Assembly: GCA_002919265.1 (NCBI GenBank)
Contig: PKEY01000088.1
Span: 1 to 57,024, forward strand
DNA: 57,024 nucleotides
Source of the DNA: Hyphomicrobiaceae bacterium
Lineage (GTDB): Bacteria; Pseudomonadota; Alphaproteobacteria; Rhizobiales; Hyphomicrobiaceae
Direction of reading: 5' to 3'
Under the pieces are notes generated by a model, which worked only from the letters and a program-made list of their open reading frames with translations, did no database searches and was not told the origin of the DNA. Positions 2,222 to 18,208 of the stretch are shown in pieces. Position numbers and translations under genes: made by a program. Positions within the stretch are counted from its first letter, which is position 1. The number at the start of each line of letters is the position of its first letter.

Positions 2222-2512
2222 TCAGCCTTTGAGCTCGATCTCTATGAACGCGAATTCGCCCTCGCTCGCGTTGATGACATTGTGGTGCACGCCCGCCTTC
2301 CGGAAGTACGAAACACCGAGCTTCAGATCGGCATAGGTCTCCTCCCCTTCGGGCGAAACGAGCTTCAAACGTCCATTGCCGGCGGGCACCACCACGTAAT
2401 CCAATTCGTGAACGTGAAAGCCTGTCTCGGCGCCGGGGGCGAATCGCCATTCCGTCACGCGAACCCGCTCATTGTCGACCTGCACTGTCGGTACGGCACG
2501 CGGCGCTGTCAT
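2222..2512 (-). CDS. small cupin-domain protein
   Basis: A 96-residue single-domain cupin. The usual metal-site pattern is present as HVHELDYVVVPAGNG near residues 33-47, with a second motif around HHNVINASEGEFAFIE near residues 76-91. The start codon overlaps the stop of fdhB by 4 bases (ATGA), so it is translationally coupled and is the last gene of the ligase/fdhB operon. Such stand-alone cupins can be enzymes or small-molecule sensors. Its position suggests a link to formate or a related small carboxylate, but that is inference and no substrate can be assigned. Confidence 0.8.
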   Translation of the reverse strand: MTAPRAVPTVQVDNERVRVTEWRFAPGAETGFHVHELDYVVVPAGNGRLKLVSPEGEETYADLKLGVSYFRKAGVHHNVINASEGEFAFIEIELKG

Positions 2513-4230
2513 CGAAAATCCTCCGGGAAATATTTGAGAACCGATCGCAAGGGATTAGGCGCGGCCTGACCCAGGCCGCAGATGGAGGCGTCTGCCATCA
2601 CCTGCGCCAGGTCTTCAAGCAGCTCCTTGTCCCAGTGCGGCTCGGACATGAGCTTGACCGCTTTTTCCGTGCCATTGCGGCACGGCGTACATTGGCCACA
2701 GCTCTCCTCCCGGAAGAACTTCATGAGATTGAGGGCGACAGCCTTCATGTCGTCCTTGTCGGACAGGATGACGACGGCATGGCTCCCCACGAAACACCCG
2801 TGATTCTCGAGCTGTCCGAAATCAAGCGGAAGATCGGCCATCGACGCCGGAAGGATGCCGCCCGAGGCTCCGCCCGGCAGATAGCCCTTGAACGTGTGCC
2901 CTTCGGCCATGCCGCCGCAAAGCTCAATAAGATCCCGAACAGTCGAGCCCGCAGGTGCAAGCACCACGCCGGGATTCTTTACACGTCCGGAAACGGAGTA
3001 TGAGCGGAAGCCTTTCGCACCATTCTTGCCCTGCGACGCGAACCACTCCGCGCCTTTGGCCAGAATTTGCGGCACCCAGTAAAGCGTCTCGACATTGTTG
3101 ACGAGCGTCGGCCGCCCGAATATGCCCACTTGCGCGACGTATGGCGGCCGATGCCGCGGCAGACCGCGCTTTCCTTCGATCGACTCGATCATCGCGCTTT
3201 CTTCACCGCAGATGTAGGCGCCAGCGCCGCGGCGAATATGGACTTTCGTGTGGCGTGACAGGCCCGCGGCTTCGAGCTTCGGCACCTCGCGTCGCAAAAT
3301 TTCGAGCACGGCGGGATATTCATCCCGCATGTAGATGAAAACCTCGGATGCCTCGACGGCCCAGGCGCCGATCAGCATGCCCTCGAGGAACTGGTGTGGG
3401 CGGCGTTCCAGGTAATACCGGTCCTTGAACGTGCCCGGCTCGCCCTCGTCGCCGTTGACCGCCATGAACCGCGGGCCTGGCTCTGCGCGCACGAGGCTCC
3501 ACTTGCGGCCCGTTGGAAATCCCGCACCGCCGAGCCCGCGCAGGCCGCCATCCGAAAGCGTCGCGATCACATCCTCAACGATGCGCTCGCCTGAAAGACA
3601 GGCTTCGAGCACCTTGTAACCGCCCTCGGCGCGATAGGCCTCGAGGTCTTGATAGGCTGGAACATTCGGATGCGTGTTTCCGGATTCCACTACAGCAAGC
3701 ACACGCTCCAGCGTGGCGCGATCGACATGCCGATGCCCCACTTCGACCGCGGGCGCCATATCGCAAGAGCCCATGCACGGCGCGCGGACGACGCGCACAT
3801 TCGGCAGCTGCTCCTGCTGGAGCGCCTTCAGAAGCTCCTCTGCGCCCGCGAGCATGCAGGAGAGGCTATCGCAGACGCGCACCGTGACGGCCGGCGGCCG
3901 CGGCTCTCCGTCGTTCACCACGTCGAAGTGCGCGTAGAACGTGGCGACCTCGTAAACCTCCGCCATCGGAATGCGCATCAGCTCAGCGAGGCCATGCAGA
4001 TGGCCAGCCGGCAAGCAGTGCTCCGCATCCTGAATTTTATGCAGGTACTCGATGAGCAGCGCGCGCTCATATGGGCCCGGACCGATCAACTGCCGTACGG
4101 CCTCGACCTCCTCCTGGCGCAGCACGCGGCCCTTCGGGAACATCGGCGCCTTGCGCCGGCCTGAACCCGGTCGATTGGATCGCCCCCCGTTTCCATTAGA
4201 GCGAGGACCTGAATTGCTCATATCGTTCAT
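2509..4230 (-). CDS. fdhB: NAD-dependent formate dehydrogenase beta subunit (FdsG-FdsB fusion)
   Basis: A 573-residue diaphorase subunit that takes electrons from FdhA and reduces NAD+. A NuoE-like thioredoxin-fold domain (about residues 38-180) with [2Fe-2S] ligands C120, C125, C152 and C156 is fused to a NuoF-like domain. The latter has the FMN/NADH loops RGLGGAGFPTGRKW (231-244) and NGDEGEPGTFKDR (259-271), ICGEES (340-345), and the [4Fe-4S] motif ESCGQCTPCR with C511, C514, C517 and C551. The fusion and the length match Fdh1B of Methylorubrum extorquens rather than the separate FdsG and FdsB of Cupriavidus. The first 37 residues are a basic Gly/Ser/Asn-rich tail. Overlaps of 4 bases with genes on both sides show translational coupling. 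Confidence 0.96.
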   Translation of the reverse strand: MNDMSNSGPRSNGNGGRSNRPGSGRRKAPMFPKGRVLRQEEVEAVRQLIGPGPYERALLIEYLHKIQDAEHCLPAGHLHGLAELMRIPMAEVYEVATFYAHFDVVNDGEPRPPAVTVRVCDSLSCMLAGAEELLKALQQEQLPNVRVVRAPCMGSCDMAPAVEVGHRHVDRATLERVLAVVESGNTHPNVPAYQDLEAYRAEGGYKVLEACLSGERIVEDVIATLSDGGLRGLGGAGFPTGRKWSLVRAEPGPRFMAVNGDEGEPGTFKDRYYLERRPHQFLEGMLIGAWAVEASEVFIYMRDEYPAVLEILRREVPKLEAAGLSRHTKVHIRRGAGAYICGEESAMIESIEGKRGLPRHRPPYVAQVGIFGRPTLVNNVETLYWVPQILAKGAEWFASQGKNGAKGFRSYSVSGRVKNPGVVLAPAGSTVRDLIELCGGMAEGHTFKGYLPGGASGGILPASMADLPLDFGQLENHGCFVGSHAVVILSDKDDMKAVALNLMKFFREESCGQCTPCRNGTEKAVKLMSEPHWDKELLEDLAQVMADASICGLGQAAPNPLRSVLKYFPEDFR

Positions 4231-5108
4231 CTATACCCCGCCAACGCCTGCCGCATTGTCACTCCCACCAGGTCGGCCCTGGGCGCGATCACGACGCCCG
4301 CCTCCCGTAACGCTTCCATCTTGGCCTTTGCACTGCCCATTTGGCCAGCCGCGAGTGCACCCGCATGACCCATTCTCCGTTGTTGCGGGGCATTTTGGCC
4401 AACCACGATCGCCACGATGGGCTTCTCGGGCTTCAGCTCCTTAATCAACGCGGCCGCTTCCTCCTCATCCGTTCCGCCGATCTCTCCGATGAGGATGATA
4501 CCCTCGGTGGCGGGATCCTCCAAAAACAGCCGCACACAATCCGCGAGACTGACACCGTGGACGGGATCACCGCCGACTCCGATCGTCGCCGACTGCCCGA
4601 GGCCCGCGGCTGTGGTTTGGGCGACGATTTCGCTCGTCAGCGATGCAGAGCGCGACGCAATCCCGACCGGCCCTTTGCAGGCGTTGATCGTCGTCATCAC
4701 GCCAAGCTGCGTTTCGCCCGGAACGAGGATGCCCTGCGAATTGGGGCCCACCAGCCGCGTACGCGATCCTTGAAGCCTCTGCCGCACGCGGATCATGTCG
4801 AGGACAGGAACGCGCTCCGTCACGCAAACAAGAAGCTCGATGCCGGCATCAATCGCCTCGATCATCGCGTCGGCGGCGCTGGCCGGCGGCACGAACACCA
4901 GGCTGGCCGTCGCTCCCGTTGCCGCCACGGCCTCCACTACAGTGTCGAAGACGGGCACATCAAGATGCCGCCGTCCACCTTTCCCGGGCGTCACACCGCC
5001 GACGACCTGTGTGCCATAGGCCACCATGCGGCCGACGTGGTAGGTCGCGGCACGGCCAGTCAGGCCTTGGCAGATGACACGCGTCTCTTTTGTTGCAAGG
5101 ACAGCCAT
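4227..5108 (-). CDS. SucD/MtkB-like ADP-forming acyl-CoA ligase, alpha subunit
   Basis: A 293-residue alpha subunit of the succinyl-CoA synthetase/malate-CoA ligase family. The CoA-binding Rossmann domain (VICQGLTGRAATYH, GGVTPGKGG) and the phosphorylated histidine in RRMGHAGAL are intact, so phosphoryl transfer looks possible. The acid-binding loops differ from true SucD: GPNCPG is GPNSQG and SRSGTLTYE is SRSASLTSE. This suggests a substrate other than succinate, although malate-CoA ligase remains possible. The ATG at 5106-5108 overlaps the beta-subunit stop by one base (TGATG), and the stop overlaps fdhB by 4 bases. The acid substrate is unknown; formate or oxalate are suggested only by the neighbours. 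Confidence 0.85.
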   Translation of the reverse strand: MAVLATKETRVICQGLTGRAATYHVGRMVAYGTQVVGGVTPGKGGRRHLDVPVFDTVVEAVAATGATASLVFVPPASAADAMIEAIDAGIELLVCVTERVPVLDMIRVRQRLQGSRTRLVGPNSQGILVPGETQLGVMTTINACKGPVGIASRSASLTSEIVAQTTAAGLGQSATIGVGGDPVHGVSLADCVRLFLEDPATEGIILIGEIGGTDEEEAAALIKELKPEKPIVAIVVGQNAPQQRRMGHAGALAAGQMGSAKAKMEALREAGVVIAPRADLVGVTMRQALAGYR

Positions 5109-6277
5109 CACGCGGCCTTAAGTGTTGCGAGTTGTACGGCTGTATTGACCGCCTGCCACATGTCCGCCGTCTCTACGACAGAAACGCCGTAGCTCTTGAG
5201 ACGTGTCGCAGCAAATTCGGCGTTATTCCCAGCAAGGCGCACAACGATCGGAACCGAGCATCCGAACCGGCGAAAAGCGATGCCAATGCCATCGGCGATC
5301 GTATCGCAGCGTTGCATTCCGCCGCCGTGAACATTGACCAGCACGCTGCGCACTTGCGGATTGGTCGCGATCAGTCCGAAGGCATACGCAATGTCGAGGC
5401 TCGTGGCGGTGGTGCGGATGTCCATGAAGTTGGCCGCGCGTCCACCTGCCTGATGCAACAGATCAAGGGTCGCCAGGGCCAAACCAGCACCATTCACAAC
5501 GACTCCAATATCGCCGTCGAGCTTCAAATAGTTGATCTGATGACGATCGGCGGCCAGCATCACGGAATCGTTGTCCTCGCCCTCATTGACGTCCTGCAAC
5601 GCCGCGATGTCGGGATGTCGGAACAGCGCGTGGTCGTCGATGGTCACTTTGGCATCGAGGGCGACGAAATCCCCGGAGGGCGTCAAAGCGAGCGGACTGA
5701 TTTCGACCAGAATAGCGTCGAGTGATACAGCTGCCTCAGCAATTTGCGACAGCCGCTTCGCGAAAAGCGACCTTTGCACTGGCTCGAAGCCAAAGGGGCT
5801 CGCAGCACGGTCAAAATCGCCTCTGGCCGTGCTGCCAACGATCTCCAGGGGAAGGACGGTGCCGTCGCCACATCCAGCAGAGCGCTCATCGTCGCGATCC
5901 CGAGTGACGAGGATTAGCTGTCCCCTCGATCGGTCGACGACAGCAGCGCAATAGAAGCTGCGCACAACCGGGACTGCTTCTTCGATATAAACCCAGCGCA
6001 CTTCCTCACCAGCGGGGCCAGTCTGATTTGTCATCAGCCGTCGCCCGATGATTTCGGCTGCGATCGTGCCAACTTCGTCAGGGCTGGTTGCGAACCGGAT
6101 CCCACCACCAGCTGCGCGCTCACCGGCCTGGATTTGCGCCTTGACGACGAACTCCCGAACGTTCAGCCGACGCGCAACCGATGCCGCCTCTGCGCCGCTC
6201 GCCGCAAGCCGGCCGCGAGGGATCATGATACCAAATCGGGTGAGAAGCTCCTTCGCCTGGAACTCGTGCAGGTTCAT
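5108..6277 (-). CDS. SucC/MtkA-like acyl-CoA ligase beta subunit, degenerate motifs
   Basis: A 389-residue ATP-grasp beta subunit, full length for the SucC family (MNLHEFQAKELL start, VNGAGLALATLD, VVRLAGNNAE). Several usually invariant positions have changed. The nucleotide loop AGGRGKAGG reads AGERAAGGG. The magnesium-site EINPL reads EISPL, while the paired Asp in ALDAK is kept. NFLDVGGGA reads NFMDIRTTA, and NIFGGI reads NVHGGG. These are family-level comparisons from memory. The protein may have altered chemistry or substrate, or may be losing activity; the clean frame and tight coupling argue against simple decay. The start at 6277 has GGAGGAG about 9 bases upstream. It is the first gene of the operon ending with fdhB and the cupin. 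Confidence 0.82.
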   Translation of the reverse strand: MNLHEFQAKELLTRFGIMIPRGRLAASGAEAASVARRLNVREFVVKAQIQAGERAAGGGIRFATSPDEVGTIAAEIIGRRLMTNQTGPAGEEVRWVYIEEAVPVVRSFYCAAVVDRSRGQLILVTRDRDDERSAGCGDGTVLPLEIVGSTARGDFDRAASPFGFEPVQRSLFAKRLSQIAEAAVSLDAILVEISPLALTPSGDFVALDAKVTIDDHALFRHPDIAALQDVNEGEDNDSVMLAADRHQINYLKLDGDIGVVVNGAGLALATLDLLHQAGGRAANFMDIRTTATSLDIAYAFGLIATNPQVRSVLVNVHGGGMQRCDTIADGIGIAFRRFGCSVPIVVRLAGNNAEFAATRLKSYGVSVVETADMWQAVNTAVQLATLKAA

Positions 6278-6706
6278 CTGCGGCGCTCCTCCTGCAGGCA
6301 GCCGCAGGCACAAGCAGCCACTTGCCCATCCTGCGGCGTGTTCTCATTCCCCCCGTGAGATGAATTGCGGCATTCCGGCAAATGCCAGCCTTCCTTATCC
6401 GAGTGGCTTTCGCTTATGCCAGCGCATTTGGGCGCCTCTGGCATACCAAATACAATATGCCAATTGCGCTGAACTGTCGAGCGTGCCACGATGCATTCAT
6501 TCCGTTCTGGACGAAGAGGGGGAAATCTGGTGTTGAGACGCTTCCGCTGTAGGAGCGATCCTCAGCGTATTTCCACTCAACGAATGACGGGAAAGGGTCG
6601 GCAGGGGATTATGGAGACACAGTTGCGCCCCTCGACCGCACGCCGAGCATCAAAGCCAGCGCGTTTCGCAAACGGCTGACAATGAAATATGCGCCGGGAG
6701 AATGGA
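6278..6706. other. divergent intergenic region, ligase/fdh operon versus terC
   Basis: A 429-bp stretch without a convincing gene. It separates the SucC-like gene (minus) from the TerC-like gene (plus) and so should hold promoters for both. It contains four copies of TGGCAT: one on the plus strand at 6439-6444 and three on the minus strand at 6457-6462, 6416-6421 and 6382-6387. One pair forms the operator-like site described separately. No clear -35/-10 pair stands out. Confidence 0.6.
6439..6462. promoter_or_regulatory. operator-like inverted repeat upstream of the ligase/fdh operon
   Basis: TGGCATA (6439-6445) and TATGCCA (6456-6462) form an inverted repeat with 10 bases between the arms. 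The first 16 bases match the motif found before tctA and gntR at 13 of 16 positions. Read along the gene it precedes, the motif has the same orientation at all three sites. It lies 162 bases before the start of the SucC-like gene. This suggests control by the GntR protein encoded at 11428. It is a weaker match than the other two sites. Confidence 0.5.
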
Positions 6707-7838: not shown

Positions 7839-8357
7839 TCAATAGCCAAGATAGGCTTCAAGCGGCCCCTTCGGTAACGGAACCAGGAACCAAACCTCGA
7901 ACATCAGGAATAAAAACACAGGAACAGCGATGCCAACAAGCGCTGCTCGGAGGATTGATTCACGCCCCAAGACCAGCATAAAGGCCATGATGAAAATTGC
8001 CGATGACACGTAAAGGCCGAGATATTGGATCGCCCCTACGTACACGATGGCCGGCACCAGAACGGCAAGCACCCTCATAAAGGCCGTCTTGGTCACAAAA
8101 GCGTCGCTTCCGTTTCCGCCCTTAGCCAGAACAGCCCGGGCTAAATTCACGAAACTTGCCCCGGCCAATATCACCGCGATGTAGAACGGAAAATATCCTG
8201 ACGCCGGCCCCTCGTTTTCCCGCCAGTCGAATCCTAGCCGCGTACTGTCGTAGATCACGATTGAACTGACGAGCAGAAGCAGCAGGGCGACGACGATATC
8301 CATCGTCCTGTTCGATACGAGGCCTGGTTCGTCGCCGGAACCTTCATTACCGTGCAT
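7839..8357 (-). CDS. tctB: TTT transporter small membrane subunit, TctB-like
   Basis: A 172-residue protein with four hydrophobic segments, typical of the poorly conserved TctB subunit that accompanies TctA in tripartite tricarboxylate transporters of the inner membrane. Recognisable family features are the first segment followed by GPASGYFPFYIAVILAGASF (residues about 50-70) and the C-terminal PKGPLEAYLGY. It is the last gene of a tctA-tctC-tctB set, 128 bases after tctC. The usual order is C-B-A, so this set is rearranged. The substrate is not visible in the sequence; the setting suggests oxalate. Confidence 0.85.
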   Translation of the reverse strand: MHGNEGSGDEPGLVSNRTMDIVVALLLLLVSSIVIYDSTRLGFDWRENEGPASGYFPFYIAVILAGASFVNLARAVLAKGGNGSDAFVTKTAFMRVLAVLVPAIVYVGAIQYLGLYVSSAIFIMAFMLVLGRESILRAALVGIAVPVFLFLMFEVWFLVPLPKGPLEAYLGY

Positions 8358-8485: not shown

Positions 8486-9499
8486 TCATTTCCCAGGTGC
8501 CAGGAATCCAGCCTCTTTCATGAGATCGTAGTGAATCTTTTCGGCTTCCTCGACCCACTTGGCGAATTCCTCACCCTCCATGAACGTCTGATTATACGCG
8601 CCGCTTTCCATGAAAGTCTTCCAATCCTCCGTCTCCCTCACCTTCTTGAAGAGGTCGACGTAGAATTGCACCTGCTCCGGAGTTACGCCGCTCGGCATGA
8701 AAATGCCACGGAGCATTTGGTAGACGACCGGCAGCCCTGACTCCGTGCACGTTGGAATGTCGCTCCAGGCCATCGTTTCCGTAATTTTGTCGGTGTAAGT
8801 CGACCGCTCCTTATCGAAGATGCAAAGCGGCTTGAGCGCGCCGGATTTCCAATGCTGGGCTGCTTCGATGGGGTTGTTGACGGTTGAATTGACATGCTTG
8901 CCTACGAGCTGGACTGCAACCGTGCCGCCTCCCTGGAACGGAACGTAGGTGAATTTTTTGCCGCCCGTCTCCCGCTCAATGGCGACGGTTATGATTTGGT
9001 CCTCCTGCTTGGACCCAGTGCCGCCCATTTTGAACTGACGGTCAGGCGCCGCCTTTACGGCCTCGATGTACTCCTTGGCCGTGTTGTAGGGCGCGTCAGC
9101 AGGCACCCATAGGATAAACTGGTCCAGCGCCAGCATCGCAACCGGCGTCAGATCTCTCCAGCTGAATGGAGTACCCGTGCTCAGCGGAGTCGTGAACAGA
9201 TTGGAGAGCGTGATAATGATCTTGTGTGGATCGCCTTTGCTGTTCTTGACCTCGAGGAAGCCCTCGGCGCCAGCGCCACCGGACTTGTTGATGACGACCA
9301 TGGGCTGCTTCATCAGCTTGTGTTTGGACACAACGCCCTGAATGAAGCGCGCCATCTGATCAGCACCGCCACCCGTTCCAGCCGGGATGACAAATGTTAC
9401 TGGCTTCGTCGGCTCCCAGGCCATGGCCTGGTGCGGTGCAATCGTTGCGGCAGAGATCAGCCCTCCTGCAAGCGCAACTAAAGAGCAAAACTTTTTCAT
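8486..9499 (-). CDS. tctC: TTT transporter periplasmic binding protein, TctC-like
   Basis: A 337-residue periplasmic solute-binding protein (Bug/TctC family) that captures a carboxylate and hands it to TctAB. A signal peptide occupies about residues 1-27 (MKKFCSLVALAGGLISA...AMA), and the family motif VTFVIPAGTGGGADQMAR follows. The start at 9499 has AAAGGAG about 8 bases upstream; longer in-frame starts would bury the signal peptide behind a charged tail. It lies between tctA and tctB. The substrate is unknown. Its operator is shared with the regulator of the oxalate genes, so an oxalate or related dicarboxylate ligand is the favoured inference. Confidence 0.9.
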   Translation of the reverse strand: MKKFCSLVALAGGLISAATIAPHQAMAWEPTKPVTFVIPAGTGGGADQMARFIQGVVSKHKLMKQPMVVINKSGGAGAEGFLEVKNSKGDPHKIIITLSNLFTTPLSTGTPFSWRDLTPVAMLALDQFILWVPADAPYNTAKEYIEAVKAAPDRQFKMGGTGSKQEDQIITVAIERETGGKKFTYVPFQGGGTVAVQLVGKHVNSTVNNPIEAAQHWKSGALKPLCIFDKERSTYTDKITETMAWSDIPTCTESGLPVVYQMLRGIFMPSGVTPEQVQFYVDLFKKVRETEDWKTFMESGAYNQTFMEGEEFAKWVEEAEKIHYDLMKEAGFLAPGK

Positions 9500-9613
9500 A
9501 CTCCAGCTCCTTTTTCGTTTCCTCTCATTTGTATTTTTCATTGGCATTTTGTTTCTTTGAACGTCAGTAGAGGTTCATGAGGGCCAAATGGTCTCCCACT
9601 TGGCCCCACATTT

Positions 9614-11122
9614 TTATGCGTGTTGTGGCTTCGGCTTGCGAAGACTCGCTATGACCCACCGAATTCCTGGCCAGAACAGCAGGACCAATCCTAGGGTCAT
9701 GATGCTGCTTACGAGCCAGTTGGAGAAGAAGATGCCGAGGCTACCCTGGCTCAAAAGCATTGCCTGTCTGAAGGATCCTTCGGCCATGTCACCAAGGACC
9801 AGCGCCAGGACCAATGGCGGTAACGGGTAACCGAGTTTTACGAAAACGTACCCTATCACCCCGAACACCACCATCATCCATACGTCGAAGATGGAGTTGT
9901 TGACGGTGTAAGCCCCCACTGCGCAAACGACGAGAATGATGGGCGCAATGATTGAGAACGGTATGCGCAGGATCGAGGCGAATAGCGGCACGCACGTGAG
10001 GATAATGATAAGGCCCGCGATATTGCCCAGATACATGGACGCGATGAGGCCCCAGACAAAATCCGGCTGTTCGACGAACAGCATCGGCCCCGGCTGAAGG
10101 CCCCAGATCAAGAGACCTCCCAGCAACACCGCAGCGGTCGGCGAGCCCGGAATGCCGAGCGTTAGCATCGGCAGCAACGCACTCGTTCCGGCAGCATGCG
10201 CGGCCGTTTCCGGCGCCAGTACGCCTTCAATTTCCCCTTTGCCGAAATTCTTGGAGTTCTTTGAGAACTGCTTGGCCAGGCCATAGCTCATGAACGAGGC
10301 TGGTGTGGCGCCGCCGGGCGTAATGCCCATCCAGCAGCCGATCAGGCAGCTTCGCAAAAATGTGAACCAGAATTTCGGCAGCTGCTTCCACGTTTCCAGA
10401 ACCGCGTTCAGCCGGATTTTTGCGTGAGCGCCGGAAAAGCTGAGCCCCTCCTCCATCGACGACAAAATTTCGCCGATGCCAAAAAGACCGATGACTGCCA
10501 CCAGGAATACGAAGCCGTTCAGCAGCATTTCGTACCCGAACGTCATCCGCAGCTGGCCGGTAACGTTATCGAGCCCTACGGAGGCTAACGCGAAGCCAAG
10601 GCACATGGACGCGAGCGTCTTGAACGGAGAACCCCGCCCCATGCCGATAAAGCTCGCGAAGGTGAGGAATTGAACGGCGAAAAATTCAGGTGGACCAAAT
10701 CGTAATGCAAAATTCGCGACCAGCGGTGCGAGAAATGTAATGACGATCACCGCAACGATCGCCCCGATGAATGACGAGGTGAACGCCGCCGTCAGTGCCT
10801 CGTCGGCTTTTCCCTTTTGAGCCATGGGGTGGCCGTCGAATGTTGTTGCCACGGACCAAGGCTCGCCGGGAATATTGAACAAAATCGAGGTGATGGCGCC
10901 ACCGAACAAAGCCCCCCAATAGATGCAACTCAGCATGATAATTGCTGAGGTCGGCGGCATTGAAAATGTCAGGGGGAGGAGGATTGCAACACCATTGGCA
11001 CCTCCCAGCCCGGGCAAAACGCCGATGATCACACCAAGGAGGATGCCAATAAGCATCAGGAGCAGGTTAAACGGGGTCAATACGACCGCGAAACCTGCAA
11101 AAAGCGAGGCGATCTCTTCCAA
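9614..11122 (-). CDS. tctA: TTT transporter large permease subunit, TctA-like
   Basis: The 502-residue permease of a tripartite tricarboxylate transporter, with about 11-12 membrane segments. Diagnostic motifs are GVLPGLGGANGVAILLPLTF near the N-terminus, the repeat-like FNIPGEPWSVATTFDGHPMA, and in the second half GITPGGATPASFMSYGLAK and TLGIPGSPTAAVLLGGL. The start is most likely TTG at 11120-11122, with AGGGA 8 bases upstream; another TTG lies 27 bases further out. It is the first gene of the set. It sits opposite gntR across a 305-bp region with a matching pair of promoters and operators. The substrate is inferred, not shown, to be oxalate or a similar acid. Confidence 0.9.
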   Translation of the reverse strand: MEEIASLFAGFAVVLTPFNLLLMLIGILLGVIIGVLPGLGGANGVAILLPLTFSMPPTSAIIMLSCIYWGALFGGAITSILFNIPGEPWSVATTFDGHPMAQKGKADEALTAAFTSSFIGAIVAVIVITFLAPLVANFALRFGPPEFFAVQFLTFASFIGMGRGSPFKTLASMCLGFALASVGLDNVTGQLRMTFGYEMLLNGFVFLVAVIGLFGIGEILSSMEEGLSFSGAHAKIRLNAVLETWKQLPKFWFTFLRSCLIGCWMGITPGGATPASFMSYGLAKQFSKNSKNFGKGEIEGVLAPETAAHAAGTSALLPMLTLGIPGSPTAAVLLGGLLIWGLQPGPMLFVEQPDFVWGLIASMYLGNIAGLIIILTCVPLFASILRIPFSIIAPIILVVCAVGAYTVNNSIFDVWMMVVFGVIGYVFVKLGYPLPPLVLALVLGDMAEGSFRQAMLLSQGSLGIFFSNWLVSSIMTLGLVLLFWPGIRWVIASLRKPKPQHA

Positions 11123-11205
11123 CGGACGTTTCCCTATATTTTGATGCAAGCAGAGTTCTTGAGCCCTGCTTTGCCGCTTCCACTGCCTCCAAAGGCACAG
11201 AAACT

Positions 11206-11427: not shown

Positions 11428-12114
11428 ATGGCGAACACGCAGATCAGGATCGCGCCCCTTGGGGAGGCACAAAGCCTCAAGACACGCGCCTATGAAGCGT
11501 TGAAGGCGGCCATCCTGAACATGAACATCTATGACGAGAACGCAGAGCTCCGGCTCGATGAGCGGCAGCTTTCGGCCCGGTTCGGCGTGAGCCGCACCCC
11601 GCTTCGCGAGGCTCTCGCGCAGCTGGACCAGGAGGGGCTGGTCCGCATCGTCCCACGCCGCGGCATTTACATCGTGCGCAAGACCAAGGCCGAAATTCTT
11701 GAAATGATTACGGTCTGGGCCGCGCTTGAAAGCATGGCGGCACGGCTTGCCACCAAGGAGGCCTCCGACGAGGAGATCGCAAGCCTTCATGAATTGATTG
11801 ATGATTTTTCAGCAGACGAAATCGCCCGCAAAATGGGTGAATATTCGGACGCCAATATTCGTTTCCATCAGGCCATCATCAATCTCGGCAAGTGCGCCCT
11901 GATCCGCGAGCTCACGGATAAGCTGTTTTTCCACGTTCGCGCTATTCGGCATCGGACGATTTTCGAACAGGACCGCGCGCGGCGTTCGATCGTCGACCAC
12001 CGCGAAATCGTTGCTGCGCTCGAGGCGCGCGACACGGAGCGGGCCGAACGGCTGGTGCGCGAGCACACCCTGAGACTTCGGGACCACGTCGAGCGCTACG
12101 TCAACCTCGACTAG
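11428..12114 (+). CDS. GntR/FCD-family transcriptional regulator, candidate oxalate-pathway regulator
   Basis: A 228-residue regulator. The winged helix-turn-helix spans about residues 18-82 (LSARFGVSRTPLREALAQLDQEGLVRIVPRRGIYI), and the all-helical FCD ligand domain spans about 90-220. Likely metal/ligand residues are D141, H147, H191 and H213, the usual FCD pattern for sensing small carboxylates. It lies 33 bases before oxc and opposite the TTT transporter genes. Operators on both sides overlap predicted -10 elements, so it is probably a repressor released by oxalate or a product of it; the ligand is inference. The nearest good Shine-Dalgarno sequence (AAGGAG, 11407-11412) is rather far from the ATG. 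Confidence 0.9.
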   Translation: MANTQIRIAPLGEAQSLKTRAYEALKAAILNMNIYDENAELRLDERQLSARFGVSRTPLREALAQLDQEGLVRIVPRRGIYIVRKTKAEILEMITVWAALESMAARLATKEASDEEIASLHELIDDFSADEIARKMGEYSDANIRFHQAIINLGKCALIRELTDKLFFHVRAIRHRTIFEQDRARRSIVDHREIVAALEARDTERAERLVREHTLRLRDHVERYVNLD

Positions 12115-12147: not shown

Positions 12148-13887
12148 ATGTCCGTAACGGCGCAAAGTGTGCAGGCACAGTCTGCAGGCGGGGAGCAGGA
12201 GCTGACGGACGGCTTTCATCTCATCATCGAAGCCCTGAAGCTCAACGGCCTCAACACCATCTACTGTGTGCCCGGCATCCCGATCACCGACCTGGCCCGT
12301 CTGGCGCAAGCATCGGGCATGCGCGTCATTTCCTTCCGGCATGAGCAGAACGCCGGCAACGCCGCAGCCATCGCCGGCTTCCTCACCAGGAAGCCTGGTA
12401 TTTGCCTTACCGTGTCTGCGCCCGGTTTCCTTAACGGACTGACCGCCCTGGCGAACGCGACGACCAACTGCTTCCCGATGATCCTCATTTCGGGGTCGTC
12501 CGAACGGGAAATCGTCGACCTGCAACAGGGCGACTACGAGGAGATGGACCAGCTCGCCATCGCCAAACCTCTTTGCAAGGCGGCGTATCGTATTCTGCGG
12601 GCGGAGGACATCGGCATCGGCGTAGCGCGCGCCATCCGTTCGGCTGTGTCTGGGCGACCCGGTGGCGTTTATCTCGATATTCCTGCCAAACTTCTTTCTC
12701 AGGTCATTGATGCCGAGCTCGGCCGGAAATCGCTCGTCAAGGTCATCGACCCGGCACCAGCCCAGATCCCGGCCAAGGAAGCCGTTGATCGGGCCCTCAA
12801 CCTTCTCCGGCAGGCGAAGCGTCCGCTCATCATTCTCGGCAAAGGCGCAGCTTATGCGCAGGCGGATGACGCAATTCGCGATCTTGTCGAGAAAAGCGGC
12901 ATTCCGTTCCTGCCCATGAGCATGGCGAAGGGCATCTTGCCTGACACGCACCCGCAGTGCGCCGGCGCGGCACGTTCGCTGGTGCTGAAAGAGTCCGATG
13001 TCGTCATGCTCATCGGCGCGCGGCTCAACTGGCTGCTCTCCCACGGCAAGGGCAAGACCTGGGGTGATGCGCCGAAGAAGTTTATTCAGATCGACATCGA
13101 ACCCAGGGAGATGGACAGCAACGTCGAGATCGCCGCGCCAATCGTGGGCGATATCGAATCGTGCGTCTCCCGGCTGCTCGAAGGCATGGGCAATGACTGG
13201 CCAAATCCGCCGGAGGAGTGGATCAAGACAGTCAACGCCAAAAAGGAAGAAAACATCGCCAAGATGGCGCCGCGGTTGAGAAACAACTCGGTGCCGATGG
13301 ATTTCCACGCCGCGCTTGGTGCGCTGCGTACCGTCATCAAGGAGCGGCCTGATACGATCCTCGTCAACGAAGGCGCCAACACCCTCGATCTGGCGCGCGG
13401 CATCATCGACATCCACAAGCCGCGCAAGCGTCTCGACGTCGGTACCTGGGGCGTCATGGGCATCGGCACGGGCTTCGCGATCGCGGCGGCGATCGAAACC
13501 GGCAACCGCGTGCTTGCCGTCGTCGGCGACAGCGCCTTCGGATTCTCCGGCATGGAGATCGAAACGATCTGCCGGTACAATTTGCCGGTCTGTGTTGTCG
13601 TCTTCAACAACAACGGCATTTATCGCGGGACCGAGGTCAATCCATCGGGCGGTCCTGACCCCGCGATCACTGTGTTCGTCAAGGACGCCCGCTACGACAA
13701 GATGATGGAAGCCTTCGGCGGCGTTGGCGTCCATGCTACGACGCCTGACGAACTGAAGCGCGCCGTCGAGGAAGCGCTGGATTCGGGCAAGCCTACCCTC
13801 ATCAACGCAGCAATCGATCCCGCGGCAGGCAGTGAAAGCGGCCGCATCGGAAATCTTAATCCACAAAGCCTGCTGAAAAAGAAATAA
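12148..13887 (+). CDS. oxc: oxalyl-CoA decarboxylase
   Basis: A 579-residue thiamine-diphosphate enzyme that converts oxalyl-CoA to formyl-CoA and CO2, in the cytoplasm. The N-terminal Pyr domain has the ThDP-activating glutamate E66 in [18 protein letters not shown]. The middle domain binds the nucleotide part of CoA/ADP. The C-terminal PP domain has the Mg/ThDP motif [11 protein letters not shown] followed by FNNNGIY. Length and motifs fit the Oxc group rather than acetolactate synthases. GAAAGGAG lies ahead of the ATG. It follows gntR and is 11 bases before frc, and these two enzymes together form the classic oxalate-degradation pair. Confidence 0.96.
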
Positions 13888-13898
13888 GGGAGCTTGAA

Positions 13899-15167
13899 AT
13901 GAAGGCCCTGGAAGGCATCCGCGTCCTGGATTTCACCCACGTGCAGTCCGGCCCCACCTGCACGCAGCTTCTGGCCTGGTTTGGCGCCGACGTTATCAAG
14001 GTGGAGCGGCCAGGCACCGGAGACATCACCCGCAATCAGCTGCAGGATATCCCGAACGTGGATAGCCTGTATTTCACGATGCTGAACCACAACAAGCGGT
14101 CGATCACGCTCGATACCAAACACCCCAAGGGCAAGGAGGTATTGGAGCGGTTGATCAAGGTCTGCGACGTGCTGGTGGAGAATTTTGCGCCGGGCGTGCT
14201 TGATCGCATGGGTTTTTCCTGGGAGCGGATCCAGGAGCTTAATCCGCGGATGATCTACGCCTCCATCAAGGGGTTCGGCCCTGGCCCTTATGAGGATTGC
14301 AAGGTCTACGAAAACATCGCCCAGTGCACAGGCGGCGCCGCGTCCACCACGGGCTTTGACGACGGCCCGCCGCTGGTGACGGGCGCGCAGATCGGCGACA
14401 GCGGTACCGGCCTGCACCTGGCCCTCGGCATCGTGACCGCCCTCTTCCAGCGAACGCGCACCGGCCGTGGTCAGCGCGTCACCTGCGCCATGCAGGACGG
14501 CGTGCTCAATCTCTGCCGCGTGAAGTTGCGTGACCAGCAGCGCCTCGCCCACGGTCCGTTGACCGAATATCCGCAGTACAGCGAGGGCAAGCCGTTCGGT
14601 GACACCGTTCCGCGCTCGGGCAATGCTTCCGGTGGTGGCCAGCCTGGCTGGATTTTGAAGTGCAAAGGCTGGGAGACCGACCCCAACGCGTACATCTACT
14701 TCATCGCCCAGGCACCCGTCTGGGACAAGATTTGCGACGTCATCGGCGAGCCTGAATGGAAGACGCACCCCGATTACGCAACACCGAAGGCCCGGCTTCC
14801 GCGGCTCAAGCAAATCTTTGAGCGCATTGAGCAGTGGACCATGACCAAGACGAAGTTCGAGGTCATGGAAACTCTCAACAAGTACGACATCCCCTGCGGG
14901 CCGATCCTTTCGATGAAGGAGCTTGCCGAGGATCAGTCGCTGCGCGCCACCGGCACGATTGTCGAGGTCGATCACCCGACACGCGGCAAGTATCTGACGG
15001 TCGGCAACCCCATCAAGCTCTCCGACAGCCCGGCCGAAGTGAGGCGCTCTCCGCTGCTCGGCGAGCATACGGAAGAAATTCTGCGTGACGTGTTGGGCTA
15101 TACCGACGAGGAAATCGCCGAAATCAGGCCGGCGACAGAACCGCCGCAAAGGCAGGCCGCAGAATGA
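13899..15167 (+). CDS. frc: formyl-CoA:oxalate CoA-transferase
   Basis: A 422-residue class III CoA-transferase. It moves CoA from formyl-CoA to oxalate, giving oxalyl-CoA for Oxc and releasing formate. The catalytic aspartate is D167 in [10 protein letters not shown]. Other fingerprints are the N-terminal [23 protein letters not shown] with Q16, and the substrate loop [21 protein letters not shown], which matches bacterial Frc/YfdW well. GGGAG lies ahead of the ATG. Together with Oxc it makes a cycle whose net reaction is oxalate to formate plus CO2. A hairpin follows 10 bases after the stop. Confidence 0.96.
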
Positions 15168-15419: not shown

Positions 15420-15476
15420 AGGAGCCGAGAAAAAAGGTCCGCACGGCACAGACAAAGAAATTTGGGAAGGAATCAA

Positions 15477-18113
15477 ATGCGCATCGTAGTCCATGGGCAG
15501 CAGGCTTTCGGAAAGGCCGTTCTTGAGAAGCTGCTGGAGCGCGGAGAGAACGTGGTTGCCGTGTTCTGCGCGCCCGACAAGGAGGGCAAACCGCGCGATC
15601 CACTCGCTGCCTTTGCCGAGGAAAAAGGCCTGCCTGTTCACCAGCCCAAATCATGGAAGACGCCGGAAGCGCTCGAGTTGATGCGCTCCTACGAGCCAGA
15701 TCTGTGCGTGATGGCCTATGTCACGCTGTTCGTACCGCAGGCGGTGCTCGACGTTCCGAAGCTCGGCACCATCCAGTACCACCCCTCTCTGCTGCCTCTG
15801 CACCGCGGCCCGTCCTCGATCAACTGGCCCATCGCCATGGGCAAGACGCGCACGGGCCTTACGATTTTCTGGCCCGATGAGGGGCTCGATGAGGGGCCCA
15901 TCCTTCTCCAAAAGGAGGTTGAAATCGGCCCGGACGAGACGCTGGGAGACGTGTACTTCAAGAAGCTCTTCCCCCTCGGCGTCGAGGCCATGATGGAGGC
16001 TGTCGACCTCGTCCGCGCGGGTAAAGCCCCGAAAATTCCGCAAGATCACTCAAAGGCCACTTACGAGAGCTGGTTCAAAAAGGAGCTCGCCGAGATCGAT
16101 TGGTCGAAGCCGGTTTCCGAGGTTTACAACCTCATTCGCGCGAGCAACCCCGCGCCGGGCGCCTGGAGCACAATCAAGGGCACAAAGCTCGACATCTTCG
16201 ATTCTGCCAAGCTAGATGGCTCAGGCGGCCCTGGCGAAATTGTCGCCATTACAGGCGAGGGCATTCAGGTTGCGGCCAAGGGCGGCCGTATCTTGATCAA
16301 GCGGGTGCGCGCGCCTGGCGGCCAGAAAATTCCGGCAACGGAATATGCCGTCTCCGCGGGACTCAAGGTCGGAGATCGGTTCGATCCGCCGTCAGGAAAG
16401 TCAACGCCAGACAAGTCTTCAGGGGGAACGTCCTCCTCCACGGTGAAATCGGACATTGAGATCGCCCGCGAAGCGAAAATGAAGCCGATCCAGGAGGTCG
16501 GCGCGAAGCTGGGCATCCCGCCTGAGGCGCTTCTTCTTTATGGACCGACGAAGGCAAAGGTTTCCTACGACTTTATCAACACCCTTCAGGATCGCCCGGA
16601 CGGCAAGCTCATCCTCGTGACCGCGATCAACCCGACGCCGGCTGGCGAGGGCAAGACCACCACGACGGTGGGCCTTGGCGATGCCCTCAATCGCATCGGC
16701 AAGAAGGCCATGAGCTGCCTTCGCGAGCCCTCGCTGGGCCCGTGCTTCGGAATGAAGGGCGGCGCAGCCGGTGGCGGTTACGCCCAGGTCGTGCCGATGG
16801 AGGACATCAACCTCCACTTCACCGGCGATTTCCACGCGATCACGTCGGCGAACAACCTGCTCGCCGCGATGATCGACAATCATATTTACTGGGGCAACGA
16901 GCTCGGCATCGACCCACGGCGCATCGCCTGGCGGCGCGTCATGGACATGAACGACCGCGCACTGCGCTCTATCGTGAACTCGCTGGGCGGCGTCGCGAAT
17001 GGCTTCCCACGGCAGGACGGCTTCGACATCACGGTCGCGTCCGAGGTCATGGCCATCCTGTGCCTTGCCACGGACCTCAAGGACCTGCAGCGCCGGCTCG
17101 GCAACATCGTGGTTGCCTACACGCGTGACCGGAAGCCGATCCTCGCGCGAGATCTCAAGGCAGACGGCGCCATGACCGTCCTGCTCAAGGACGCGCTGAT
17201 GCCAAACCTCGTGCAAACGCTGGAGAACAACCCCGTGTTCGTCCACGGCGGCCCGTTCGCCAACATCGCGCACGGCTGCAACTCGGTGCTGGCGACGAAA
17301 ACGGCGTTGAAGCTTGCGGATTACGTTGTGACCGAGGCCGGCTTCGGCGCGGATCTCGGCGCCGAGAAGTTCTTCGACATCAAGTGCCGGAAGGCTGGCC
17401 TCAAGCCGTCGGCGGCGGTGATCGTCGCAACGGTGCGTGCGCTCAAGATGCACGGCGGCGTCGCCAAGGAAGACCTCAAGACCGAGAACGTCGAAGCTGT
17501 GCGCAAGGGCGCGGAGAACCTGAAGCGCCACATTGAGAACGTGCGCAAGTTCGGCATCCAGCCCGTGGTCGCCATCAACCGCTTCATTTCCGATACCGAC
17601 GCGGAATTGAAAGCTGTCATGGAGATCGCGGAGAGCGCCGGAACGCGGGCATTCGCCTGCACGCACTGGGCCGATGGCGGCAAGGGCGCCGAGGACCTCG
17701 CACGGCACGTCGTCGAGATCTGCGAAAGCGGCAAGGCCGACTTCAAGCTGCTTTATCCCGACGACATGCCGCTGTGGGAGAAGATCAAGACGATTGCGAC
17801 CAGCCTGTACGGCGCGGCGGACATCAGTGCGGATGCGAGCGTCCGCAATCAGCTGAAAGAGTTCGAGGAGAACGGCTACGGGCACCTGCCCATCTGCATG
17901 GCGAAAACGCAGTACTCGTTCTCGACGAACCCGAACCTGCGCGGCGCTCCGACGGGCCACGTGGTCAATATCCGTGAGGTGATCCTGTCGGCGGGTGCCG
18001 AGTTCGTCGTTGCGGTCTGCGGCGACATCATGCGGATGCCGGGCCTGCCGCGCGTGCCCTCAGCCGAACAGATCCGCCTCAATGAGAAAGGGCAAATCGA
18101 GGGTCTGTTCTAA
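15477..18113 (+). CDS. fusion of formyltransferase/10-formyl-THF hydrolase-like module and formate-tetrahydrofolate ligase
   Basis: An 878-residue two-module protein. Residues 1-203 form a formyltransferase N domain and about 204-302 its C domain, closest in pattern to the hydrolase part of ALDH1L1. H102 in [11 protein letters not shown] and D138 in DEGLDEG keep the catalytic spacing of 36. A Ser/Thr/Gly/Pro linker (about 303-325) leads to a complete formate-THF ligase (about 326-878). This has [11 protein letters not shown] (386-396), [15 protein letters not shown] (425-439) and [12 protein letters not shown]. The ligase makes 10-formyl-THF from formate, THF and ATP. The first module may hydrolyse it, or may load THF from another formyl donor such as formyl-CoA; that part is open. 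GGGAAGG lies 6 bases before the ATG. The position behind oxc-frc suggests formate capture. Confidence 0.92.
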
Positions 18114-18150: not shown

Positions 18151-18170
18151 AACGGAATTTCAAAATTTTT

Positions 18171-18208
18171 GGCGTCCCGAAGGGCCTCTTTCGGGACGCC
18201 ATTTTTTT
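18171..18208 (+). terminator. strong rho-independent terminator
   Basis: GGCGTCCCGAA (18171-18181) pairs perfectly with TTCGGGACGCC (18190-18200), followed by ATTTTTTT. It closes the oxalate/C1 gene run, between convergent genes. Confidence 0.9.

Follow-up and report, generated by a model that had tools for sequence, protein, structure and literature searches.

The closest described relatives of the protein examined here move, or are proposed to move, formyl groups between folate and a thiol. ALDH1L1 loads the formyl group of 10-formyltetrahydrofolate (10-formyl-THF) onto its carrier domain, at the thiol of a 4'-phosphopantetheine (PMC8748788), and a mechanism proposed for the isolated ALDH1L1 hydrolase domain opens with thiol attack by mercaptoethanol (PMC4388273). 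For HypX, which holds CoA, it is proposed that 10-formyl-THF and CoA yield formyl-CoA, direct proof being lacking according to its authors (PMC6802093). A paper on oxalate breakdown by oxalyl-CoA decarboxylase (OXC) and formyl-CoA:oxalate CoA-transferase (FRC) prints a scheme that stops at free formate (PMC3720670), and one on a bacterial formyl-CoA-making enzyme supposes formyl-CoA hydrolysis (PMC7176365). Here we analysed a stretch of 57,024 nucleotides from a Hyphomicrobiaceae bacterium (contig PKEY01000088.1 of assembly GCA_002919265.1; hereafter the window), in which a formyltransferase-like module (FT) is fused to a formate–tetrahydrofolate ligase (FTHFS) behind OXC and FRC genes. We put at roughly one in two the probability that FT exchanges formyl groups between formyl-CoA and tetrahydrofolate (THF), chiefly in the direction of 10-formyl-THF. 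Each part belongs to a known kind; in the open-licence literature searched, we found no description of the FT–FTHFS architecture or of a formyl-CoA:THF enzyme from an oxalate operon, nor of the predicted reaction.

The fused protein and its described relatives

The fused gene is an open frame of 878 amino acids on the + strand (15477–18113), running from an ATG at 15477 to a stop ending at 18113. A GGAAGGA stretch lies immediately 5' of the ATG, and an in-frame TTG is found at 15462. Pfam places Formyl_trans_N at residues 1–162 (107 bits), Formyl_trans_C at residues 201–291 (75 bits) and FTHFS (PF01268) at residues 324–878 (927 bits, profile positions 1–556 of 556), with no other domain, and NCBIfam adds eight matches. 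This bears out the sequence-only reading, which had described a formyltransferase N+C module joined through a Ser/Gly linker to a complete FTHFS. On the DNA, the FT module, a predicted formyl-CoA:THF formyltransferase with Q100, H102, S104, R110, D138 and Y196, spans 15477–16349 (+); a Ser/Gly/Lys-rich linker (residues 292–323) follows at 16350–16445 (+), with model pLDDT below 50 at residues 307–334; and the complete FTHFS module occupies 16446–18110 (+; NF010030 952 bits, cut-off 652). By these matches the C-terminal module is a full FTHFS family member, and it is the sole FTHFS found in the source genome (3.44 Mb, 94.8% complete). The fused frame is real and not a frame artefact, since 51 of 120 listed clusters contain all three Pfam domains and three of the 80 genome loci have the fusion as a single open frame. 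In a predicted full-length model the FT part is good, and because the whole-model predicted template-modelling score (pTM) is 0.58 we claim no domain arrangement.

The nearest solved relative of FT is the N-domain of ALDH1L1/ALDH1L2 (228 bits), which also fills the first Foldseek rows at 38% identity. Aligned with 12 ALDH1L rows, H102, S104, R110, D138 and Y196 of FT are the counterparts of ALDH1L1 His106, Ser108, Arg114, Asp142 and Tyr200 (numbering taken from PMC4388273). The H102/D138 pair had been noticed from the sequence alone; all five residues are invariant across 39 aligned FT sequences, from which L069 was excluded for a stop inside the stretch used. FT nevertheless differs from ALDH1L proteins in several respects. 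FT–FTHFS has neither the carrier (PF00550) nor the aldehyde dehydrogenase (PF00171) domain of ALDH1L1, FT rows split from ALDH1L rows on one of two trees (95/92), 25 FT-fixed positions are unlike the 12 ALDH1L rows, and FT sits in bacterial operons with OXC and FRC. The N-terminal domain of HypX/HoxX has the same fold as FT and a proposed formyl move from 10-formyl-THF to CoA, but the C-terminal enoyl-CoA hydratase-like domain of HypX/HoxX is not among the Pfam matches of the fused protein; in the VIA list HypX rows come far down, which bears neither way on CoA binding. CoA bears the same phosphopantetheine arm as the carrier domain of ALDH1L1. Because its fold kin use, or are proposed to use, a pantetheine arm and its gene context is one of formyl-CoA, FT would most simply exchange formyl between CoA and THF.

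Other described enzymes are less close. FT scores 170.9 bits against a cut-off of 201.5 for methionyl-tRNA formyltransferase (Fmt, TIGR00460), and the Asn of the Asn-His-Asp set, whose role in Fmt we take as given, is Q100 in FT and N in the genome's own Fmt. A separate fmt gene between def and truA (names from sequences) rules out FT as the Fmt of this genome. PurU (TIGR00655) is absent from the eight NCBIfam matches of the fused protein, and no PurU match was found in the source genome at E 1e-60. Compared with FTHFS/FtfL, the window protein has the extra N-terminal FT module.

Distribution of FT and its gene partners

The architecture search and oxc/frc neighbourhood counts proposed in the sequence-only reading place FT in a large family that commonly neighbours FRC. 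With the N-terminal 330 residues as query and proteins of similar length, 219 clusters matched, and 51 of the 120 listed contain all three Pfam domains; among these 51, P0001 and P0002 match the window module at 100% and P0070 groups with the ALDH1L rows on the tree. The 310-residue module alone matched 8000 of 8000 scored candidates, a count that also takes in related formyltransferases, and the 120 matches listed are standalone proteins of ~311 residues (74–88% identity), named methionyl-tRNA formyltransferase where named. FT is mostly a separate protein of ~311 residues, the fusion being the lesser part. Genome loci were the best 80 of 551, that is, the closest relatives and no random sample, with counts restricted to loci with enough flank (74, 63 and 63 of the 80). 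FTHFS lies at most 1 kb downstream of FT in 48 of 63 such loci, three of them fused, and the fused gene of the window is one form of a common FT and FTHFS gene pair; the stress first laid on the fusion was misplaced. Fused and split states require three changes on the FT tree (four fused rows), so the fusion was repeated or lost. The row for the genome's own Fmt sits on a very long branch of this tree, and no claim is built on it. Two apparent FRC–FT fusions (P0041 and P0046) were set aside as likely gene-model artefacts with partial FRC and garbled ends. Separately, a peptide-synthetase protein (P0078) combines condensation, adenylation and carrier domains with an FT-like domain at 42% identity.

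Gene order ties FT to formyl-CoA enzymes. In the window, the genes read GntR, OXC, FRC and fused FT–FTHFS from 5' to 3', all on the + strand; the sequence-only reading had already placed the fusion behind oxc and frc. OXC (12148–13887) scores 1019 bits against the TIGR03254 cut-off of 739, FRC (13899–15167) scores 748 bits against the TIGR03253 cut-off of 504, and 309 bp separate FRC from the fusion. Across loci, FRC is directly upstream of FT on the same strand and within 1 kb in 67 of the 74 with at least 1.5 kb of upstream sequence. A gene for a thiamine pyrophosphate (TPP) enzyme, either OXC or an alternative kind, is present in 58 of the 63 with at least 4 kb upstream (48 OXC, 10 alternative).

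Co-occurrence across genomes follows the same line. Of 190 genomes of the same class, 17 have OXC or the alternative TPP enzyme; FT (E 1e-90) is found in 14 of these and in none of the remaining 173 (Fisher 1.2e-18, without correction for kinship). Carriers number 14 for FT, 15 for FRC, 8 for OXC and 9 for the alternative enzyme. FT and FRC occur together in 13 class genomes and lie within ~310 bp of each other in seven. In G120 they share a contig but are separated by 58 kb. In G104, G107, G122, G178 and G187 they lie on separate contigs, and adjacency may be concealed by breaks in the assembly; each of the two ends near a contig edge in G178. In a sample of the phylum, OXC is present in 29 of 398 genomes, and FT in 8 of the 28 OXC genomes other than the window's own, at most 3.5 kb from OXC in six of the eight. 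PurU (E 1e-60) occurs in 0 of 14 FT-carrying class genomes and 40 of 176 others (Fisher 0.044), as would suit a hydrolase, but within FTHFS genomes the pattern is 0 of 13 versus 12 of 68 (p 0.20) and not significant. Once conditioned on FTHFS in this way, FT is a weak candidate for a PurU replacement.

A second TPP family stands in the OXC slot of FRC–FT operons at L004:6500-8257, L020:6790-8532, L056:4962-6707 and L073:6786-8636, and a further member lies in an FRC operon without FT (L175:7306-9012). These enzymes are ~24–27% identical to OXC. Their nearest solved protein is AcHICL (268 bits), with which they have an MG-x-LQD-x-PH stretch in common. A true 2-hydroxyacyl-CoA lyase was considered and rejected: four tested members reach 347–357 bits, far below the cut-off of 600 for NF058623, and the Glu that depositors varied among AcHICL entries (five chains: A, S, Q, E, D), which we take to be catalytic, is Ile in the L004 enzyme. 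OXC and the alternative enzyme were found together in 0 of the 17 class genomes (p 1.6e-4 within FRC genomes) and 0 of 63 loci. On well-supported branches of the FT tree the slot switches between them at least five times, and eight times in the best tree. The alternative enzyme is a candidate second oxalyl-CoA decarboxylase or may make formyl-CoA from another substrate; formyl-CoA would be the common metabolite either way.

Direction of transfer and competing roles

From the observed domains, residues, fold, gene order and co-occurrence, we infer the substrates, direction and mechanism of FT. TctABC would import oxalate, FRC or a SucCD-like ligase would activate it to oxalyl-CoA, and OXC, as assigned by family, would decarboxylate this to formyl-CoA. 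Formyl-CoA would be bound through its pantetheine arm in the ALDH1L1-type site of FT, and the H102/S104/D138 set would transfer the formyl group to N10 of THF. The fused FTHFS, with ATP, would capture free formate released by FRC, and both one-carbon products of the operon would join one 10-formyl-THF pool. As the FT reaction should be reversible, the same protein could also start an empty FRC/OXC cycle by supplying formyl-CoA. Of three roles proposed from the sequence alone, this formyl-CoA to THF transfer is best supported, by FRC adjacency, genome co-occurrence and a fold family with known and proposed users of pantetheine thiols. The accompanying phrase 'without ATP' would suit the FT step itself, but the window also carries a SucCD-like CoA ligase of ATP-dependent type. 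More broadly, we give even odds that FT represents a widespread, misnamed family of formyl-CoA:THF formyltransferases whose TPP partner has been swapped, which has been repeatedly fused to FTHFS and which would direct both one-carbon products to folate. If so, formyl-CoA would gain a second natural fate besides free formate, and it would become clear how oxalate carbon could be turned into biomass in such bacteria through one-carbon metabolism. The name of a large family would be corrected from methionyl-tRNA formyltransferase, and one-carbon engineering would acquire a bridge between formyl-CoA chemistry and folate.

Three findings favour transfer from formyl-CoA to 10-formyl-THF. The EukProt transcript P0047 fuses FT to OXC with no FRC in the protein; its OXC part is above the cut-off of NF006721 (587 versus 557 bits) and below that of TIGR03254 (556 versus 739 bits), and no second fusion of this kind is among the best 120 of 2554 protein matches. 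Five genomes with FT and OXC, each listed as 100% complete, have no FTHFS at E 1e-90 (G325, G375, G463, G546 and G532), so FT would there carry the formyl group of formyl-CoA directly to folate; the gene order OXC-FRC-FRC-FT is seen in the operons of G546 and G325. Because FT occurs in such genomes, the scaffold channelling formate that had also been proposed cannot be a general role. Finally, FRC–FT in G482 lies near SucCD-like, CitE-like, formate dehydrogenase-like and FTHFS genes, a serine-cycle-like set (the CitE and formate dehydrogenase names are from sequences).

Several points weigh against this interpretation. Three class genomes (G007, G060 and G127, the last 74% complete) have OXC or the alternative enzyme but no FT, and FT is missing from 20 of 28 phylum-sample OXC genomes, so OXC pathways can include FT but do not require it. 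In 5 of 63 loci neither TPP enzyme is in reach of FT (L035, L054, L065, L076 and L081), and the FT stretch has one in-frame stop in G056 and G120. P0047 is a single transcript, and another isoform of the same gene id, P0241, is OXC alone. By analogy the direction might be the opposite one, since transfer from formyl-THF to a thiol is the direction of ALDH1L1 and the one proposed for HypX. Draining formyl-CoA would also empty the FRC/OXC cycle absent another oxalate activator, and of the 80 FT loci, many of them short-flanked, only 28 show a SucC- or SucD-like match. Two patterns fit the reverse direction too: FTHFS is present in 13 of 14 FT-carrying class genomes versus 68 of 176 without FT, and the FT-less operons of G007 and G060 have an acyl-CoA synthetase of ADP-forming type at the place of FT–FTHFS.

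The main rival is this opposite direction, in which FTHFS and ATP would charge THF and FT would pass the formyl group to CoA, a two-step formyl-CoA synthetase that primes or refills the FRC/OXC cycle. We consider it unlikely and take forward transfer to be the probable usual net direction. The need for priming is recognized: PMC3720670 suggests YfdE as a primer of E. coli oxalate catabolism and reports that formyl-CoA in quenched mixtures had a half-life of 1.9 h. YfdE/UctC, an acetyl-CoA:oxalate CoA-transferase, resembles FT in accompanying OXC and FRC in their operons and has been suggested to prime their cycle, but has a class III CoA-transferase fold unlike that of FT. FT was considered as a possible replacement for YfdE; in 45 genomes, FT carriers and non-carriers alike, no YfdE match exceeds its cut-off, and of eight matches below it (358–430 bits), seven are in FT-carrying class genomes and one is in G060. 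Replacement of FT–FTHFS by the single-chain synthetase in G007 and G060, its position beside OXC in G217 and the absence of its matches above 60 bits from the 80 FT loci, many of which have short flanks, would suit a shared priming function, but the SucC- or SucD-like matches in FT loci and in the window spoil a clean swap. The window's own SucCD-like ligase, the joining of FT to the formyl-CoA-making enzyme in P0047 and the FT and OXC genomes without detected FTHFS also argue against priming, although THF charged by some other route could still serve for priming. Bulk flux in this direction would probably run uphill.

The synthetases themselves are found in FT-less operons at L174:1156-3294, L166:10849-12978 and L175:3438-5555. 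Those of L174 and L166 contain ATP-grasp_5, CoA-binding, Succ_CoA_lig and Ligase_CoA_2 domains, and the L175 copy is 70% identical. Lying beside OXC/FRC or alternative-TPP/FRC genes, they are candidate oxalate- or formate-CoA ligases.

It is distinctly improbable that FT is an inert docking module or, as a formyltransferase, uses a different acceptor or donor, for example a carrier protein, a small amine or a further acyl-CoA. In the class sample FT accompanies FRC and TPP genes far more often than chance would give, which speaks against this reading, and an inert module is unlikely because the five catalytic or folate-site counterparts are invariant in FT. Least probable is the regulated-hydrolase role of the sequence-only reading, in which FT would cleave 10-formyl-THF (or formyl-CoA) to formate, as the N-domain of ALDH1L1 does with a thiol, and balance FTHFS: the closest relative of FT bears a hydrolase-domain name, but a hydrolase joined to FTHFS, the source of its substrate, would squander ATP, transfer to a thiol is the opening step in the mechanism proposed for the ALDH1L1 domain (PMC4388273), and the OXC/FRC association would be left unexplained.

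The wider window and neighbouring observations

The operon of the window begins with a GntR/FCD regulator (11428–12114, +), and a terminator-like stem-loop of 14 pairs followed by seven T lies 3' of the fused gene (18170–18201, +). A promoter scan was at chance level (1 found versus 1.5 expected). Divergent to the operon, on the − strand, are genes for a tripartite tricarboxylate-type transporter, with TctA at 9614–11149, the TctC solute-binding protein at 8486–9547 and TctB at 7839–8357. Farther along the − strand lie the subunits of an acyl-CoA ligase of ADP-forming type. The SucC-like subunit (5108–6313) is below the curated succinate and malate cut-offs, and the SucD-like subunit (4227–5111) scores 353 bits against cut-offs of 336 and 353.2. 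Near an oxalate operon, this SucCD-like ligase (4227–6313) is a possible oxalyl-CoA ligase. Next to it, a NuoE/NuoF-like fused flavoprotein (2509–4230, −) is, from its domains, probably a formate dehydrogenase subunit.

Several of the gene maps came from a simple open-reading-frame picker that sometimes chose the wrong strand. Small TPP-type subunits upstream of FT at L026:3085-3807 and L035:8777-9900 resemble, by eye, two-part sulfopyruvate decarboxylases; no OXC or FRC was found in the fetched flanks of these two loci, and the flank of L026 is slightly shorter than required for the 63-locus count. A small PAS-domain protein (L158:9555-9983) is encoded between two FRC genes of an OXC operon, and reading frames similar to it by eye occur near OXC in L168, L171 and L173. 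Near the operon of L020 is a 2-dehydropantoate reductase-like gene (L020:3047-4069), of the family to which PanE2, the oxalyl-CoA reductase of Methylobacterium, belongs. Moss and green-algal proteins (P0271, P0275 and P0313) fuse an AMP-binding ligase domain to an OXC/lyase-type TPP enzyme and fit a ligase-then-decarboxylase order.

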